From assembly GCF_002075085.1 (NCBI RefSeq), contig NZ_LKAS01000002.1, forward strand, positions 34,202 through 98,201: DNA of 64,000 nt, given 5' to 3'. The position numbers and the translations under genes were made by a program. The notes beneath the pieces were generated by a model. It was not told where the DNA came from. It did not search any database and saw only the letters and a list, made by a program, of their open reading frames with translations. Positions 1,972 to 61,454 of the stretch are shown in pieces. How positions within the stretch are numbered: position 1 is the first letter of the stretch; each line of letters opens with the position of its first letter. The DNA comes from a bacterium endosymbiont of Pedicinus badii. GTDB taxonomy: Bacteria > Pseudomonadota > Gammaproteobacteria > Enterobacterales > Enterobacteriaceae.

Positions 1972-2771
1972 CTATACAGATACTATAGCTTTAATAGATG
2001 GGTATGGATTATATCCTATAAAATCAAAATCATCTAAAACATATTGAAATAAAGATTTTGGTTTTCTTTTAATTACAAGTTTCGGTAACCTTCTAGGTTT
2101 TCTTCTTAATTGAATTTTAACTTGTTTTAGATGATTTAAGTAAATATGTATGTCTCCACCACTCCAAATCAAATCTCCTACATCTAAATCACATTGTTGT
2201 GCAAACATGTGTGTTAGTAGTGCGTAACTAGCTATATTAAAAGGTAGTCCTAAAAATACATCACAAGATCTCTGGTACATATGACAAGAAAGCTGATTAT
2301 TTTTTCCTACATAAAATTGAAAAAGAACATGACAAGGAGGTATACACATTTTAGAAATATCAGATACATTCCAAGAAGAAATTAATATTCTTCTAGAATT
2401 TTTTTCTTCTTTTAAAATTTTTAAAGCTTCTGAAATTTGATCGATAGTTTTATTTTTTTTATACGAACGCCATTTTCTCCATTGTTTTCCGTAAATAGGT
2501 CCTAAATTTCCATTTTTGTCTTCCCATGCATTCCATATAGAAACGTTTTTTTTTTTAAGTATTTAGTATTAGTATCTCCATTTAAAAACCAAAGTAATTC
2601 GCATATTATTGCTTTAGTATTGCATTTTTTTGTTGTAAGTAGAGGAAATCCTATTTTTAGATCAAATCGCATCTGATATCCAAATATTGAAATTGTTCCA
2701 GTTTTTGTTCTATCTTCTTTTAGTATTCCAGTTTTTTGAATTTTTTTTACTAAATTAAGGTATTGTTGCAT
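1972..2771 (-). CDS. thyA: Thymidylate synthase ThyA, frame-interrupted at a poly-A run
   Basis: ThyA methylates dUMP to dTMP using methylenetetrahydrofolate. Codons from 2771 encode a good N-terminus ([28 protein letters not shown]) up to an A11 run (2546-2556), after which this frame gives an unrelated tail and stops near 2502. Shifting at the run restores a continuous match: [24 protein letters not shown], then [11 protein letters not shown] with the catalytic Cys, [18 protein letters not shown], and the conserved C-terminus ending at the TAG at 1972. Joined length is about 264 residues, as in E. coli. The N-terminal fragment alone (89 residues) lacks the catalytic Cys, so dTMP synthesis would need slippage or frameshifting. 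The start overlaps the end of lgt by 17 bases; E. coli lgt and thyA also adjoin. Confidence 0.9.
2546..2556 (-). repeat. A11 homopolymer at the thyA frame break
   Basis: Eleven T on the plus strand, A11 in the thyA sense strand. After TTA, A11 gives Lys-Lys-Lys-Thr and a wrong frame. A12 or A9 gives the conserved Asn-Val-Ser-Ile-Trp continuation. Confidence 0.9.
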
Positions 2772-3618
2772 TTTTTTTCCTATTTATAGCAATGTAGATG
2801 CAAATTCCAAAAAAAATCATTAGTATTGATAGTATTTGACCCATGCTTAAAAAATTTAAAAAAACTCCTAAATTTTCATCTGGTTCTCTAAAAATCTCTG
2901 CTAAAAATCTAAATATTCCATAAGTAAACAAAAAAATACTAGAAATTATTCCAGAAGAAAATTTTTTTTTAGATAAAAATAATAAAATTAAATATAGTAA
3001 TAGACCTTCTAAAAGCATTTCATAGATTTGAGATGGATGTCTAGGAAGCATTCCGTATTTTTTAAATGTTTCTATAAATTCTGGATTGTTACGTAAAAAT
3101 ACTTGATCTTGTGCACGACTATTTGGAAAAAGCATGCACCAAGAAAATTTTGTACATACTCTACCCCAAAGTTCTCCATTTATAAAATTTCCTATTCTTC
3201 CAAAGAAAATTCCTATAGGAGACAATTGAGATACTAAATCTGAAATTTTAAAAAATTTTTTCTTCATTCTATAAGAATAAATTTTTAAAGATATAATTGT
3301 TCCAATTAATCCTCCATGAAATGACATTCCTCCTTTCCAAATAAAAAAAATTTCTTTTGGATTTTTTATAAAAAAATCTGCTTCATAAATAAAAACATAT
3401 CCTATTCTTCCTCCAATTATAATTCCTAAAAAAATATAGTACAAAAAATCTATAATTTCTTCTTTTTTAAGAAAAAAATTTTTTTTTTTAGATTTATTAA
3501 CAATAATTAGCATAACAATTAGAAAACTTAAAAAATACATAAATCCGTACCAATAAAAAGAAATACCTCCTATAGAAAATATTTCTTTTTTAAAATTTGG
3601 AAAATGTAGATATTGCAT
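2755..3618 (-). CDS. lgt: Prolipoprotein diacylglyceryl transferase
   Basis: Lgt transfers diacylglycerol from phosphatidylglycerol to the lipobox cysteine of prolipoproteins in the inner membrane, the first step of lipoprotein maturation. The 287-residue protein (E. coli 291) is hydrophobic with several membrane segments. It carries the conserved [11 protein letters not shown] segment (about residues 95-106) with the essential His, the signature [14 protein letters not shown] (about 141-154) and RHPSQIYE in the C-terminal half. It is upstream of thyA and overlaps it. A lipoprotein candidate in the window is MltC. Codon use matches the neighbours. Confidence 0.96.
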
Positions 3619-3634
3619 AAATATACTATCAAAG

Positions 3635-5128
3635 TTAACTATTTTTTGTTTTTAAAATAGGAAATAAGATAACATCTTTTATACTTTCAGAATTTGTTAG
3701 TAGCATTACCAATCTATCTATTCCTATTCCCATTCCTGCTGTTGGAGGCATACCGTATTCTAGAGATTCTATATATTCTTTGTCATAAAATTCTTTCTCA
3801 TTTTTATATTTTTTTTCTTGTAGTTGTTGTAAGAAATTTTTTGACTGCTCTTCTGGATCGTTGAGTTCAGAAAATCCATTTGCAATTTCCATACCGTGTA
3901 CAAACAATTCAAATCTTTCAGAAAAATTCAAATTTTTTTTATTTTTTTTAGATAATGGAGAAATATCTGAAGGATAATCGGTAATAAAAGTAGGTTGAAT
4001 AATGTTTTTTTCTATTTTCTTTTCAAAAATTTTCAGTTGTAGAGTTCCTAAATTCCAATGGTTTTCTACTGCAATATTTAAGGAAATTGCTATTTTTTTT
4101 AATTCTTTAAAATTTTTTAAATTTTCTTTTGTAATACTTGGAATTTTTTTTAGTATGATATTTTGTAGAGATATTTTTTCGAATGGTTTCTGAAAATCTA
4201 TTTCTTTTTCTTTATATAGTATTTTTTTTTTTCTAAATATTGAATTTAGTATAAAATGGAAAAATTTTTCTGTAAATTTCATCAAATACTTATAACTTGC
4301 ATAAGCTACGTATAACTCCATCATAGTAAATTCTGGATTATGTCTAGAAGATATTCCTTCATTTCTAAAATTCTTACTAATTTCAAATATTTTTTCAAAA
4401 CCACCTACTATAAGTCTTTTTAAATAAAGTTCTGGTGCAATTCTTAAATATAATTTTAAATTTAAAGAATTATGATATGTAATAAAAGGCTTTGCAGAAG
4501 CACCTCCAGGTATTTTTTGCATCATAGGAGTCTCTACTTCTATGAAATTTTTAAAGTGCATAAAATCCCTAATTTTTTGAATAATTTTAGATCTTGTATA
4601 GAATACTTCTTTAGATTTTCTATTTAAAATTAAGTCTAGATACCTTTTTCTATATTTAATTTCTTTATCTGCAATTCCATAGAAATTTTTTGGAATAGGA
4701 TGTAAAGATTTTGCTAAAATTTGAATTTTTTTACAATATATAGATAACTCTCCTGTTCTTGTTTTAAAAACTTTTCCTTTTATTCCTATAATATCTCCTA
4801 TATCTATATATTTTTTAAGAATTTCGTATCGAAAATTTTTTATAAAATCTTTTTTACAATATACTTGTATTTCTTCTTTTTCATCTAGTATGGTTAAGAA
4901 AATTACTTTTCCTATATCTCTTTTAGATAAAATTCTTCCAGATATGCAAAAAATTTTTTTATTCTTTTCTGTTTCTATTTTTTTTTTTTCTTGAAAAATT
5001 TTTTTAATTTCTTTAGCAGAAGAGTTTTTTTCAAAATTTTGAAAAATACATTTTTCTTTTTTAAAAAAAGAAAGTTTTTCTTTTCTCATTCCGTATTCTA
5101 AATTTTTATTATATTCTACAATTTTCAT
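3635..5128 (-). CDS. lysS: Lysyl-tRNA synthetase (class II)
   Basis: Charges tRNA-Lys with lysine. The protein is 497 residues (E. coli LysS 505). It has an N-terminal OB-fold anticodon-binding domain (about residues 55-155: ISGRILSKRDIGKVIFLTI and similar) followed by the class II core with FRNEGISSRHNPEFTMMELY (motif 2, about 253-272) and GMGIGIDRLVMLL near the C-terminus (motif 3). The N-terminus is Lys-rich and diverged. It lies six bases downstream of prfB in the same direction, as in the E. coli prfB-lysS operon, so the two are very probably co-transcribed. A lysine-rich AT-biased proteome makes this enzyme indispensable. Confidence 0.97.
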   Translation of the reverse strand: MKIVEYNKNLEYGMRKEKLSFFKKEKCIFQNFEKNSSAKEIKKIFQEKKKIETEKNKKIFCISGRILSKRDIGKVIFLTILDEKEEIQVYCKKDFIKNFRYEILKKYIDIGDIIGIKGKVFKTRTGELSIYCKKIQILAKSLHPIPKNFYGIADKEIKYRKRYLDLILNRKSKEVFYTRSKIIQKIRDFMHFKNFIEVETPMMQKIPGGASAKPFITYHNSLNLKLYLRIAPELYLKRLIVGGFEKIFEISKNFRNEGISSRHNPEFTMMELYVAYASYKYLMKFTEKFFHFILNSIFRKKKILYKEKEIDFQKPFEKISLQNIILKKIPSITKENLKNFKELKKIAISLNIAVENHWNLGTLQLKIFEKKIEKNIIQPTFITDYPSDISPLSKKNKKNLNFSERFELFVHGMEIANGFSELNDPEEQSKNFLQQLQEKKYKNEKEFYDKEYIESLEYGMPPTAGMGIGIDRLVMLLTNSESIKDVILFPILKTKNS

Positions 5129-26538: not shown

Positions 26539-27020
26539 TTAGTAAAAAATTTTTTTTATTTTATTAATAAATTTTGATACTAAATACCAAATTATTCCAT
26601 CGTTTATTCTAAAAATAAGTATTTTCGTATCCCAAATAATATTTTTTTTTACAAAAAATTCTAAAGTAAAAACCAGTATTTTGACTATAATAGAAAAAAA
26701 AAAATAATTAAAGACTGTTTAAAAATAGAAAAGTTTTTAAAAATATTGTATTTTTTTATTAAAAAAAACGATACTATTCCAAATGCTAAAGCATGAAAAC
26801 CTAATGTATTTTCTAAAAAAAAATCTGTTAATATTCCAAGTATAAAACTAAATTCCAATTTTGCAAATTCAGGATATTTAAATATCCAATGAAAAAAAAA
26901 TAAAAGCATCCAATACGGTTGTAGAAAATACAAATCTTTTTTTGTAAGAATATGCATAAAACAAACTAAAATAAAGGAATAAAATATAGATAAATAATTT
27001 ATTTTTTTTTTTTGATACAT
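26539..27020 (-). CDS. mreD: Rod-shape protein MreD, frame-interrupted at a poly-T run
   Basis: MreD is an inner-membrane protein of the MreBCD elongasome. The first frame (27020 down to 26685, about 111 residues) gives hydrophobic helices with YFLQPYWMLLFFFHWIF and LGILTDFFLENTLGFHALAF, aligning with E. coli MreD, and stops just after a T11 run (26694-26704). In the shifted frame the protein continues for 51 codons to TAA at 26539-26541 as SIIVKILVFTLEFFVKKN and RINDGIIWYLVSKFINKI, matching the remaining E. coli segments (SLVVDIIVFWAEFLVINV; VNGVLWPWLF). Joined length is about 160 residues (E. coli 162). It ends 32 bases before tldD. Apparently functional only by slippage or frameshifting, unless the last two helices are dispensable. 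Confidence 0.87.
26694..26704 (-). repeat. T11 homopolymer at the mreD frame break
   Basis: Eleven A on the plus strand, T11 in the mreD sense strand. T12 or T9 joins the two mreD frames; T11 gives Phe-Phe-Phe-Leu-Leu-stop. Confidence 0.9.
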
Positions 27021-33850: not shown

Positions 33851-34975
33851 ATGGAATCATTTTTTGAAATTTGGAAAAATCTTTCTTGGAAAAAAATCGA
33901 TTCTTCCATTAATAAAAAAACAGAAAAAGATGTACAAAAAGCTATATTTTCTGGTAGACCAAATTTTGAAGATATGCTTGCTTTACTTTCTCCTATAGCT
34001 TTAAAATACATAAAATTTTTAATTAAAAAATCTAGAGAAATTACTAAAAAGAAATTTGGAAATAACATACAAATTTTTTTACCTATGTATGTTTCTAATT
34101 TTTGTACAAATGATTGCTCGTACTGTGGATTTTCTTCGAAAAACAAAATTAGAAGAAAATTTTTAGATACAAAAGAAATTGAAAAAGAATGTAAAAAAAT
34201 TAAATCTCTTGGGATAAAAAATATTTTAGTAGTATCTGGAGAAAATAATAGAATAGTTGGAATTGAGTATTTTTTGAATACTATAAAAATAGTAAAAAAA
34301 TACTTTAGTATGATACTGTTCGAAGTACAGCCATTATCTGTCAAAGAGTATTCTGTACTTCAAAAAAATGGACTTGATGGAATACTCTTATATCAAGAAA
34401 CCTATAATTATACAGATTATAATAAGCATCATATTAAAGGAAAAAAAAAGGATTTTTTTTGGAGAATCAGTGCTCCGGAAAGAATAGGTCAATCAAATAT
34501 TAGTAAGATAGGATTAGGTATTTTATCTGGATTGTCAAAATATTGGAGAGTAGACTACTATTTTTTGTATTTGCACATTATGTATTTAAGAAAAAAATTT
34601 TGGAAATGCGAATACAGTATCTCTTTTCCAAGAATCAGACCTTTTTTTTACTCAAAAAACAAAAAAAAATTTTTAGGAATTAGTGACTTGGAACTGATAC
34701 AAGTAATATGTTCTTTCAGAATATTGTTTCCAGAAATAGAAATTAATTTGTCAACAAGAGAATCTAAAAAATTTAGAAATTTTATGATTCCAGTTTGTAT
34801 AAATAATATTAGTGTTAATTCTAAAACTTATCCAGGAGGATACACAAAAAAAAAAAAAGAGTTAGAACAATTTTCTATACAAGATAACAGAAATATTAAT
34901 CAAATAATGAAATACCTACAATCAAAAGATTTACAAATTGTTTTTAAAGATTGGGATTCTCATTTTGGAAGATGA
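33851..34975 (+). CDS. thiH: Radical SAM 2-iminoacetate synthase (tyrosine lyase)
   Basis: Cleaves tyrosine to dehydroglycine and p-cresol for ThiG. The 374-residue protein (E. coli 377) has the radical SAM motif C-x3-C-x2-C in [10 protein letters not shown] (about residues 85-94), [65 protein letters not shown] and [13 protein letters not shown]. Near the C-terminus a run of 13 A (34846-34858) encodes four lysines in frame. The last 32 bases overlap the 3' end of rpoC on the other strand. Last gene of thiEFSGH. Confidence 0.96.
34846..34858 (+). repeat. A13 homopolymer within intact thiH
   Basis: The longest mononucleotide run I noticed inside an intact gene in the window. It is in frame (Thr-Lys4-Glu). 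Polymerase slippage here would be expected to produce a fraction of truncated ThiH. Confidence 0.85.
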
Positions 34976-48076: not shown

Positions 48077-49030
48077 ATGCAAGATAAACTTTTACAATTT
48101 TTTTCTTATTTTCAAAATGTTTCTAATAAAAAAAAATTTTTTGAATTACAAAACGTACATAAAAAAAAACTTTCTAAAAAAGAAATTTTATTTTTAAAAA
48201 ATATTAATAATCAATTGTCGATTCAAGAAGTTATTAATATCTATTTGCCTTTATCAAATTTACTAAATTTTTATATTAATTTTAACTATTTGCAGAAAAA
48301 ATATTTTAATAAAATTTTTAAAGGAATTTATAAATTTTCTCCATATATTATAGGAATTTGCGGAAGCATTGCTGTAGGAAAAAGTACTACAGCAAAAATT
48401 TTAAAAATACTTCTAAAAAGAAAAATTAAAAATTATAGAGTAGAAATAATTACTACTGATAATTTTTTATACTCGAATGAATTCCTAAAAAAAAAAAAAT
48501 TAATGAAGAAGAAAGGATTTCCTGAGACGTATAAAATAAAAGAACTAGTCAATTGCATACTAAAACTTAAATCTGGATTTCCTTATATAGATACACCATT
48601 CTATTCTAAAATGCAGTATGATATTGTTCCAAATAAAAAAATTATAATACAAAAACCTAATGTACTAATTTTAGAAGGAATTAATATACTCTATAAATAT
48701 AGGTTAAACAATAGAATAAATAAAATTTCTTTATCAGACTTGATAGATTTTTCAATTTATATAGATGCTCCAGAAAAATTTTTAAAAAACTGGTATATCA
48801 ATAGATTTATAAAAATTTGCAAAAACTCCTTTTACAATGCTGCATCTTATTTTCATAAGTATTCTTTTCTTTCTAAAAGAGAAATAAGACAAATTGCTTC
48901 TTCAATTTGGAATCAAACTAACAGAAAAAACTTACGAATCAATATACTTCCTAACAAAGAAAATGCCAGTTTAATCCTTAAAAAAAAATCTGATCATAAT
49001 ATAGAAAATATGAGAATTAAGAACAGATGA
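48077..49030 (+). CDS. coaA: Pantothenate kinase (type I)
   Basis: Phosphorylates pantothenate, the first step of CoA synthesis; CoaBC and CoaD are also in the window. The 317-residue protein (E. coli 316) has the P-loop GICGSIAVGKSTTAKIL (about residues 94-110), VEIITTDNFLYSN, GFPETYKIKELVNCILKLKS, YSKMQYDIVP, NVLILEGINIL and DFSIYIDAPEKFLKNWYINR. The C-terminus ends two bases before the convergent tRNA-Glu. SD-like GGAG is ten bases before the ATG (TGGAGCATA). Confidence 0.96.
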   Translation: MQDKLLQFFSYFQNVSNKKKFFELQNVHKKKLSKKEILFLKNINNQLSIQEVINIYLPLSNLLNFYINFNYLQKKYFNKIFKGIYKFSPYIIGICGSIAVGKSTTAKILKILLKRKIKNYRVEIITTDNFLYSNEFLKKKKLMKKKGFPETYKIKELVNCILKLKSGFPYIDTPFYSKMQYDIVPNKKIIIQKPNVLILEGINILYKYRLNNRINKISLSDLIDFSIYIDAPEKFLKNWYINRFIKICKNSFYNAASYFHKYSFLSKREIRQIASSIWNQTNRKNLRINILPNKENASLILKKKSDHNIENMRIKNR

Positions 49031-59809: not shown

Positions 59810-61024
59810 ATGAAGATTCTATTCAAAAAAAACATTATATTAGGTATAACTGGAGGAGTTGCTGCTTATAAAACAATAGAAATTATAAAAAAATTAAAAG
59901 AAGAAGGTGCTTCTGTTAGAGTTATACTTACAAAATCCGCTAATTTATTTGTTACAAAATGTACACTTAGAGTAGTTTCTGGACTTCCTATTTTAGAAAA
60001 TTTTGTTAAAGGGAATAGCATTAGTCATATTAAATTAGCTAATTGGGCAGATCTAGTTATTTTAGCTCCTGCAACTGCTAATATAATTGCAAAACTATCT
60101 TGTGGTATTGCAGATGATTTATTAACTTTAGTTTGTTTAGCAACTTTATCTAAAATTATTATAGTTCCATCTATGAATCGAAATATGTACGTATCAAAAT
60201 CTGTTCAATATAACATAAAAAGATTAGAAAGATTTGGAATGAAAATTTTTTATCCAGAAATTGGTAGACAAGCTTGTGGTTGTTTTGGAATAGGAAGAAT
60301 GATGAATACTCAAAAAATTGTTAATTTAGTAATAAAATATTTCCATAAAAAAAATAATTACAAAAATTTAAATTTTATGATCACAGCTGGACCTACCAGA
60401 GAAATGATAGATCCAGTAAGATTTATTAGTAATTTTAGTTCTGGAAAAATGGGATTTTTTTTAGCTGAAGCTGCTTCTTGTATAAGTAAAAATGTTATTT
60501 TAATTTCTGGACCTGTAAATTTACCTACTCCTAAAAGAGTCAAAAGAATTAATGTTATTAGTGCCCTTGAAATGCAAAAAGAGGTAATGAAAAGAATAGA
60601 TAGACAAAATATTTTTATAGGATGTGCAGCAGTATCTGATTATAGAATACAGAAATTTTCTAAAGAAAAGATAAAAAAAAATTCAAACAAAATAAAGATA
60701 AATTTTATTAAAAATCCAGATATTATTAAATCTATTGGACACCTAAAAAAAAATAGACCTTATGTAGTTGGATTTGCTGCAGAAACTTGCAATATAGAAA
60801 AAAATGCAATAAAAAAAATAAAAGAAAAAAAACTAGATTTAATTTGTGCAAATAATGTTACCAACTTTAGTAAAAATTTTAGTTGCAATAAAAATGCTCT
60901 TTCTTTAATTTGGAAAAATAAAAAAAAAAATTTTCCTTATCAAAAAAAGAGTGTATTAGCGAAAAAACTAATTAAAGAAATTATAAAAAACTATGAAAAA
61001 AAAAATAGAAATTCGAATAGTTAA
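59810..61024 (+). CDS. coaBC: Bifunctional CoaBC (phosphopantothenoylcysteine synthetase/decarboxylase)
   Basis: Ligates cysteine to phosphopantothenate, then decarboxylates to 4'-phosphopantetheine; FMN-dependent. The 404 residues (E. coli 406) have the CoaC flavin domain with GITGGVAAYKTIEIIKKLKE, the family PASANT-type segment APATANIIAKLSCGIADDLL (about residues 85-104), PSMNRNMY and ACGCFGIGRM with the catalytic Cys, then the CoaB domain from ITAGPTREMIDPVRFISNFS, AAVSDYR and VGFAAET. It overlaps dut by 32 bases. CoaA and CoaD are also encoded here. Confidence 0.97.
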   Translation: MKILFKKNIILGITGGVAAYKTIEIIKKLKEEGASVRVILTKSANLFVTKCTLRVVSGLPILENFVKGNSISHIKLANWADLVILAPATANIIAKLSCGIADDLLTLVCLATLSKIIIVPSMNRNMYVSKSVQYNIKRLERFGMKIFYPEIGRQACGCFGIGRMMNTQKIVNLVIKYFHKKNNYKNLNFMITAGPTREMIDPVRFISNFSSGKMGFFLAEAASCISKNVILISGPVNLPTPKRVKRINVISALEMQKEVMKRIDRQNIFIGCAAVSDYRIQKFSKEKIKKNSNKIKINFIKNPDIIKSIGHLKKNRPYVVGFAAETCNIEKNAIKKIKEKKLDLICANNVTNFSKNFSCNKNALSLIWKNKKKNFPYQKKSVLAKKLIKEIIKNYEKKNRNSNS

Positions 61025-61454
61025 TAAATCTTTTTCCGAAGAATATATACCAAAATATGCTACTTACGGATCATCTGGTTTAGATTTATATGCTTGTATT
61101 AAAAGAAAAATAAATTTAAAAGCAAATTCTAGTTTATTAATTCCTACAGGAATTGCGATTAATATTAAAGATCGAAATATTTCTGGAATGATTCTACCTA
61201 GATCTGGAATAGGACACCATAGAGGAATTATATTAGGAAATTCTGTTGGACTAATAGATTCTGACTATCAAGGAGAAATTTTTGTTTCTCTATGGAATAG
61301 AAGTATGGTAGATTTTCTAATTCTCCCAAAAGATAGAATAGCACAAATTGTTTTTTTTCCAACGATACGCGTAGAATTTGAACTAGTTAAAAATTTTAAA
61401 GTAAAAAGCTCAAGAAATACACAAGGATTCGGCCATTCTGGAATAAGAAATTAG
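60993..61454 (+). CDS. dut: dUTPase
   Basis: Hydrolyses dUTP to dUMP and pyrophosphate, which protects DNA and supplies dUMP to ThyA. The 153-residue protein (E. coli 151) has the trimeric dUTPase motifs: YATYGSSGLDLYACI (motif 1), LPRSGIGHHRGI (motif 2), GNSVGLIDSDYQGEI (motif 3), DRIAQIVF (motif 4) and RNTQGFGHSG (motif 5). The start overlaps coaBC by 32 bases, as in a dfp-dut operon. The dUMP-using thyA is frame-interrupted, so this enzyme's dTTP connection depends on thyA rescue. Confidence 0.97.
   Translation: MKKKIEIRIVNKSFSEEYIPKYATYGSSGLDLYACIKRKINLKANSSLLIPTGIAINIKDRNISGMILPRSGIGHHRGIILGNSVGLIDSDYQGEIFVSLWNRSMVDFLILPKDRIAQIVFFPTIRVEFELVKNFKVKSSRNTQGFGHSGIRN

Follow-up and report, generated by a model that had tools for sequence, protein, structure and literature searches.

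A split thymidylate synthase gene in the symbiont of the louse Pedicinus badii and its possible rescue by transcriptional slippage

Frameshifts that lie in poly(A) tracts and are accompanied by transcriptional slippage have been described in the insect symbionts Buchnera and Blochmannia (Tamas et al. 2008, Wernegreen et al. 2010, as cited in PMC3017870 and PMC5009743). According to excerpts of these two citing articles, Blochmannia vafer harbors eight genes of this kind (PMC3017870), and corrected transcripts amount to 12–50% for frameshifted genes of aphid and ant symbionts (review, PMC5009743). In Buchnera, excerpts of a further study place 151 of 157 transcription insertions in A/T runs, with a frequency that rises exponentially with run length up to 11 bases, and 16 of 57 transcription deletions in homopolymers (PMC5574713). 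Pedicinus badii is a louse of monkeys, and its symbiont has been named Candidatus Puchtella sp. str. PRUG, for which passages of the literature give two contigs, 24.2% GC and a table of 47 pseudogenes (PMC9376444, PMC12175528).

The genome studied here is that of an endosymbiont of P. badii and comprises 558,122 bp in two contigs of 252,872 and 305,250 bases. The analysis started from a stretch of 64,000 nucleotides of contig NZ_LKAS01000002.1 (positions 34,202 to 98,201), called the window below; coordinates without a prefix refer to it. It contains a thyA gene that is divided between two reading frames at a run of eleven A's.

The frame break in thyA

The thyA gene is encoded on the minus strand. 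It starts at an ATG at position 2771, preceded by an AGGA ribosome site, and this start overlaps by 17 bases the end of lgt, which is intact (2755–3618, minus strand). The frame changes at an A11 run at 2546–2556 (T11 on the plus strand), at a sense offset of 215 from the ATG. Frame 1 (2502–2771, minus strand) extends from the ATG to a stop at 2502–2504 and encodes 89 residues, with 72 normal ThyA residues ahead of the run and out-of-frame sequence thereafter; it matches the ThyA profile NF002499 at positions 1–75 only. Frame 2, the -1 frame (1972–2562, minus strand), is free of stops from 2562 to the TAG at 1972–1974 over 196 codons, and the 195 residues counted from its Leu codon were designated P0001. 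It matches NF002499 at positions 72–264 of 264 and aligns with residues 73–263 of E. coli thymidylate synthase; structures of thymidylate synthases have been solved repeatedly. The codon of the catalytic Cys, at 2332–2334, is confined to frame 2, which also holds a conserved block of 11 residues. The active-site blocks (18 residues in one-letter code, and HIY), with the catalytic Cys and the active-site residues next to it, align with those of the E. coli enzyme. An earlier note on this DNA had claimed that thyA is split at this run, that its first frame yields 89 residues lacking the active-site Cys, and that its second frame reaches the TAG at 1972 with the later conserved blocks; the frames and the profile matches agree in bearing out all three claims.

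Downstream of the run, frame 2 contains its terminal stop only, and the other two frames contain 17 and 18. When the two frames are joined, the read-through scores 443.1 bits against NF002499 and covers profile positions 1–264 of 264. The curated cut-off of 405 bits is reached by this read-through only, the two pieces scoring 322.2 and 111.1 bits singly. The gene thus carries one break, located inside a long A/T run, and no second one. An Rfam search of the window returned four tRNAs and no match near thyA.

The length that the run would need can be read from related proteins. A run of twelve A's gives a loop of three residues at this place, and a run of nine gives two. ThyA sequences were extracted from 37 of 48 loci (L003–L031 and L095–L113), 11 having failed the search pattern; one of the 37, L014, has no loop motif and was excluded from the alignments and the tree, so that the alignment holds 37 sequences, 36 from relatives and that of the louse symbiont. 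Three residues separate YL/FL from the x[VI]xIW block in all 36 relatives in which the motif was scored. This matches A12, and the DNA of the louse symbiont therefore lacks one base relative to the usual form. L096, which is placed as its sister in a tree computed without support values, carries nine A's in frame at this position, which makes this loop a natural place for Lys runs.

We lean towards the explanation that transcriptional slippage, by adding one A on the A11 run, yields some full-length thyA mRNA. A single-copy thyA that is still under selection would ancestrally have had twelve A's here, one of which has since been lost. On the A11 run that is left, RNA polymerase would back up and add one A in some transcripts; these A12 transcripts would be translated into a full ThyA of 266 residues, and the others into a dead product of 89 residues. 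We infer a true A11 in the DNA, slippage at this particular run and a sufficient share of slipped transcripts.

Breaks at other A/T runs

Other genes split at A/T runs were sought in 202,202 bases, or 36% of the genome, with a scan that takes in runs of at least 8 bases and to which other indels are invisible. It gave 51 rows. The 26 from the window and the upstream stretch were judged by position against named genes, and 17 of the remaining 25 were read; most of the rows judged are gene junctions. Six run-split genes were kept, namely thyA (A11), recC (T10), mreD (T11), ftsI (A13), uppP (T9) and the membrane part of ftsK (T10), the runs being given in gene sense. For thyA, recC, mreD, ftsI and uppP, both parts match the respective family (mreD by read-through), and each of these genes is one base short.

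Two of these genes share the window with thyA, and both are on the minus strand. The first frame of recC (1294–1971) matches its profile at positions 1–213 and breaks at a T10 run at 1325–1334 (A10 on the plus strand); the second frame (2–1339) extends beyond the window into the stretch L090. The recB (1147 aa) and recD (607 aa) genes beside recC, named by position and by eye, are open. The third frame break of the window is in mreD, at a T11 run at 26694–26704 (A11 on the plus strand). The first frame (26688–27020) encodes the N-terminal part and matches profile positions 7–110 of 162; with the second frame (26542–26718) added by read-through, the MreD score rises from 62.5 to 78.3 bits and the match extends over positions 8–159 of 162.

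The remaining cases lie elsewhere in the genome. An A13 run (L123:10548–10560, equivalent to C2:250547–250559) divides ftsI, the gene for PBP3, into two parts that match positions 18–222 and 227–560 of the 588 of the FtsI profile. In uppP, the gene for undecaprenyl-diphosphatase, the split falls in a T9 run (L122:16512–16520), where the exact break was placed by eye; its parts match positions 5–72 and 77–254 of 255. A remnant of the membrane part of ftsK (L119:12503–13148) is split at a T10 run and would be brought into frame by a shift in the other direction. The second of its pieces has no FtsK profile match and was named by eye; a motor part is absent downstream, where the next frame is read as serS. 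Finally, rsmI (L122:8740–9060) appears truncated, with a match to profile positions 1–82 of 287 and no obvious long run at its end, and was not counted.

Within open frames no shorter than 80 aa, splits per run number 0/456 for runs of 8 bases, 1/209 for 9, 2/100 for 10, 2/27 for 11, 0/17 for 12, 1/6 for 13 and 0/2 for 14. A run of 11 is in itself ordinary, as the 27 A/T runs of this length in such frames of the scanned 202 kb attest: the split, and not the length of the run, is the unusual feature of thyA. In the same 202 kb, sense-T runs of at least 9 bases are broken more often (4 of 50) than sense-A runs (2 of 311).

These figures also bear on whether the break exists at all, since the assembly may have miscounted the run or the genome copies may be a mixture of A11 and A12, in which case thyA, or some of its copies, would be in frame. 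A deficit of one base could also result from a miscounted homopolymer or from deletion-prone replication. Breaks concentrate in the longest runs (5/152 at 10–14 bases vs 1/665 at 8–9), the five otherwise preserved genes all lack one base, as under-counting predicts, and such important genes as ftsI and uppP are among those split; moreover, the scanned stretches contain single ambiguous bases (1, 5 and 1 N). However, 147 of the 152 open-frame runs of 10–14 bases did not enter the set of splits, a figure in which the unsplit runs were not examined individually. Long runs without a split include the T11 run in lgt (3479–3489 on the plus strand), T11 (4222–4232) and T12 runs in lysS beside thyA, and two A13 runs in the window, at 34846–34858 in thiH and at 48487–48499 in a 317-aa frame of the PRK family. 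Related symbionts, in addition, provide published cases of slippage at frameshifts. Taken together, a miscount or a mixture of copies seems to us unlikely, if still to be reckoned with, and the following sections take the A11 run as it stands.

Whether ThyA is needed, and the state of the gene behind the break

ThyA is normally essential for the formation of dTMP unless thymidine is imported or ThyX is present. The earlier note had drawn from this that the cell needs a rescue unless ThyX or thymidine salvage stands in, and had proposed searching the rest of the genome for thyX, tdk or thymidine transporters. The first point holds for ThyX, tdk, dNK-type kinases and NupC-type carriers, none of which was found in the genome; the rescue itself is inferred. 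ThyX, dNK-type kinases and NupC-type carriers each gave 0 matches, and NupC-type carriers were the only transporters sought; NupG, Tsx, nucleotide carriers and other kinases lay outside the search. Two candidates for a bypass were discarded: the sole match to the Pfam TK family (23.3 bits) sits in the frame of recA (named by eye), and a second copy of thyA is ruled out by P0001 having a single match in the genome.

The enzymes around ThyA are retained. Both folA (166 aa) and tmk (215 aa) are intact, as is dut, encoding the dUTPase (60993–61454, plus strand), which makes dUMP, the substrate of ThyA. A second, weaker match to the dUTPase family, of 202 aa, is read as dcd.

Among 48 relatives (12 + 36), folA is intact in 25 of 25 with an intact thyA and in 7 of 23 in which thyA is absent or eroded. 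These genomes were chosen by hand and non-randomly and are related to one another, and folA also serves folate synthesis, so the table counts as supporting evidence. Its intact class includes one genome with a ThyA only 33% identical (G007), and 40 further genomes with no thyA match lay outside the sample. In one relative, at 49% completeness, thyA occupies two adjacent frames (G028:C1:991522–992090; query positions 2–144 and 146–194), perhaps as a result of a sequencing fault.

The half of thyA behind the break is well preserved. Of the 58 sites there that are invariant in the 36 other sequences, 2 have changed in that of the louse symbiont (one Pro and one Leu, presumably not among the catalytic residues), and of the 21 such sites ahead of the break, 0 have. 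The 16 relatives with a GC content below 36% have changed at 0–3 of the 58 and 0–2 of the 21 sites. Mean identity to the 19 higher-GC relatives is 0.633 before the break and 0.604 behind it, inside the ranges of the 16 low-GC relatives (0.551–0.756 and 0.571–0.744, respectively). On a fixed topology, the branch of the louse symbiont measures 0.622 before the break, as estimated from 72 columns, and 0.366 behind it, the latter value falling inside the 0.145–0.578 of the low-GC relatives. The half behind the break thus shows no sign of decay, and its rate is not raised.

Eroded pseudogenes, marked by several stops or indels and by the loss of conserved sites, look different from this gene with its one break. 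Two reduced genomes hold such dead copies of thyA (loci L114, L115, L116 and L117). In G358 it consists of two overlapping pieces at 33% identity with five and nine stops, and in G112 of two pieces at 53% and 42% identity with one stop each; folA is in pieces too in both genomes.

The kept sites and the absence of a raised rate indicate either that the half beyond frame 1 has been retained or that the break is young, and the second option leads to the possibility that the thyA frame was lost only lately, that decay is at an early stage, and that dTMP or thymidine comes from the host. Only one genome of the genus was compared, so the break is undated by sister genomes and the kept sites may only mean youth; a contig scan for ThyA gave 58 loci at 43–60% identity, with no sister strain among them. 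Loss of thyA has also occurred in other reduced relatives: among 392 genomes drawn from the family, 60 gave no match, and there are the dead copies described above. Such a recent loss is at odds with the lack of matches for tdk, dNK-type kinases and NupC-type carriers, although carriers beyond the NupC type would have escaped the search and the point is not decisive, and with the intact folA, which is likewise not decisive given its role in folate synthesis. On balance we regard it as distinctly improbable.

The proposed slippage at thyA in comparison with known systems

The preferred reading, slippage of RNA polymerase on the A11 run, draws on the position of the split in a loop, the intact flanks, the retained enzymes of the dTMP pathway, the absence of the bypasses searched for, and the like breaks elsewhere in the genome. 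A point that counts against a rescue of thyA by slippage is that no frame-restoring transcription error was detected in Buchnera, according to the excerpts of PMC5574713. A very improbable reading is that the mRNA is uniformly A11 and that ribosomes restore the frame by a -1 shift on A AAA AAA, either by themselves or in addition to slippage of the polymerase: such heptamers are slippery, they occur in the zero frame within the run and the required shift is -1, but a stretch of 111 bases that takes in the run and the sequence behind it gave no stimulatory structure in a fold model that does not include pseudoknots (z -0.09, 88 of 200 shuffles at least as good), and the Shine-Dalgarno-like GGAGA precedes the run by 18 bases and encodes the conserved GDT motif.

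One may speculate that thyA, ftsI, uppP, recC and mreD are all expressed only via miscounted A/T runs, in RNA or through run lengths that differ between the copies of a polyploid genome, so that dTMP, cell-wall and division functions would be jointly throttled by polymerase infidelity; we consider this rather unlikely.

The phenomenon as such is known, and the thyA case would be a fresh instance in another symbiont lineage and another gene. Within a literature search whose scope did not take in the source genome paper or the founding slippage papers, which makes its silence weak, no report of a frameshifted thyA from symbionts of this type came up; the papers that it returned on this subject deal, by title, with phages and phytoplasmas. 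The Puchtella papers that it returned do not contain 'thyA' in their main text, and 'frameshift' and 'slippage' are absent from those in which they were looked up. Should the A11 run be real, an obligate symbiont would rely on a stuttering polymerase for its dTMP synthesis. What has been described in Buchnera and Blochmannia would then reach a louse symbiont, with thyA and ftsI among the genes concerned, and some of the genes annotated as pseudogenes in genomes of this type would still function.

Compared with canonical ThyA proteins (NF002499, TIGR03284), that of the louse symbiont has all the blocks, spread across two frames, and its read-through stands above the curated cut-off, but it is not encoded in one frame. 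Programmed ribosomal frameshifting of the dnaX type uses an A-rich slippery heptamer and a -1 shift. The thyA run shares both, but in contrast to dnaX it comes without a downstream structure or a well-placed Shine-Dalgarno stimulator, and the product needed is the full-length rather than a truncated one. The cases in Buchnera and Blochmannia are the closest. The present one differs from them in belonging to a louse-symbiont lineage, in affecting thyA and ftsI, and in being known here from the DNA of one genome alone; it shares with them an AT-rich obligate insect symbiont as host, a single break in a long A/T run, otherwise preserved flanks of the break, and several affected genes in one genome.
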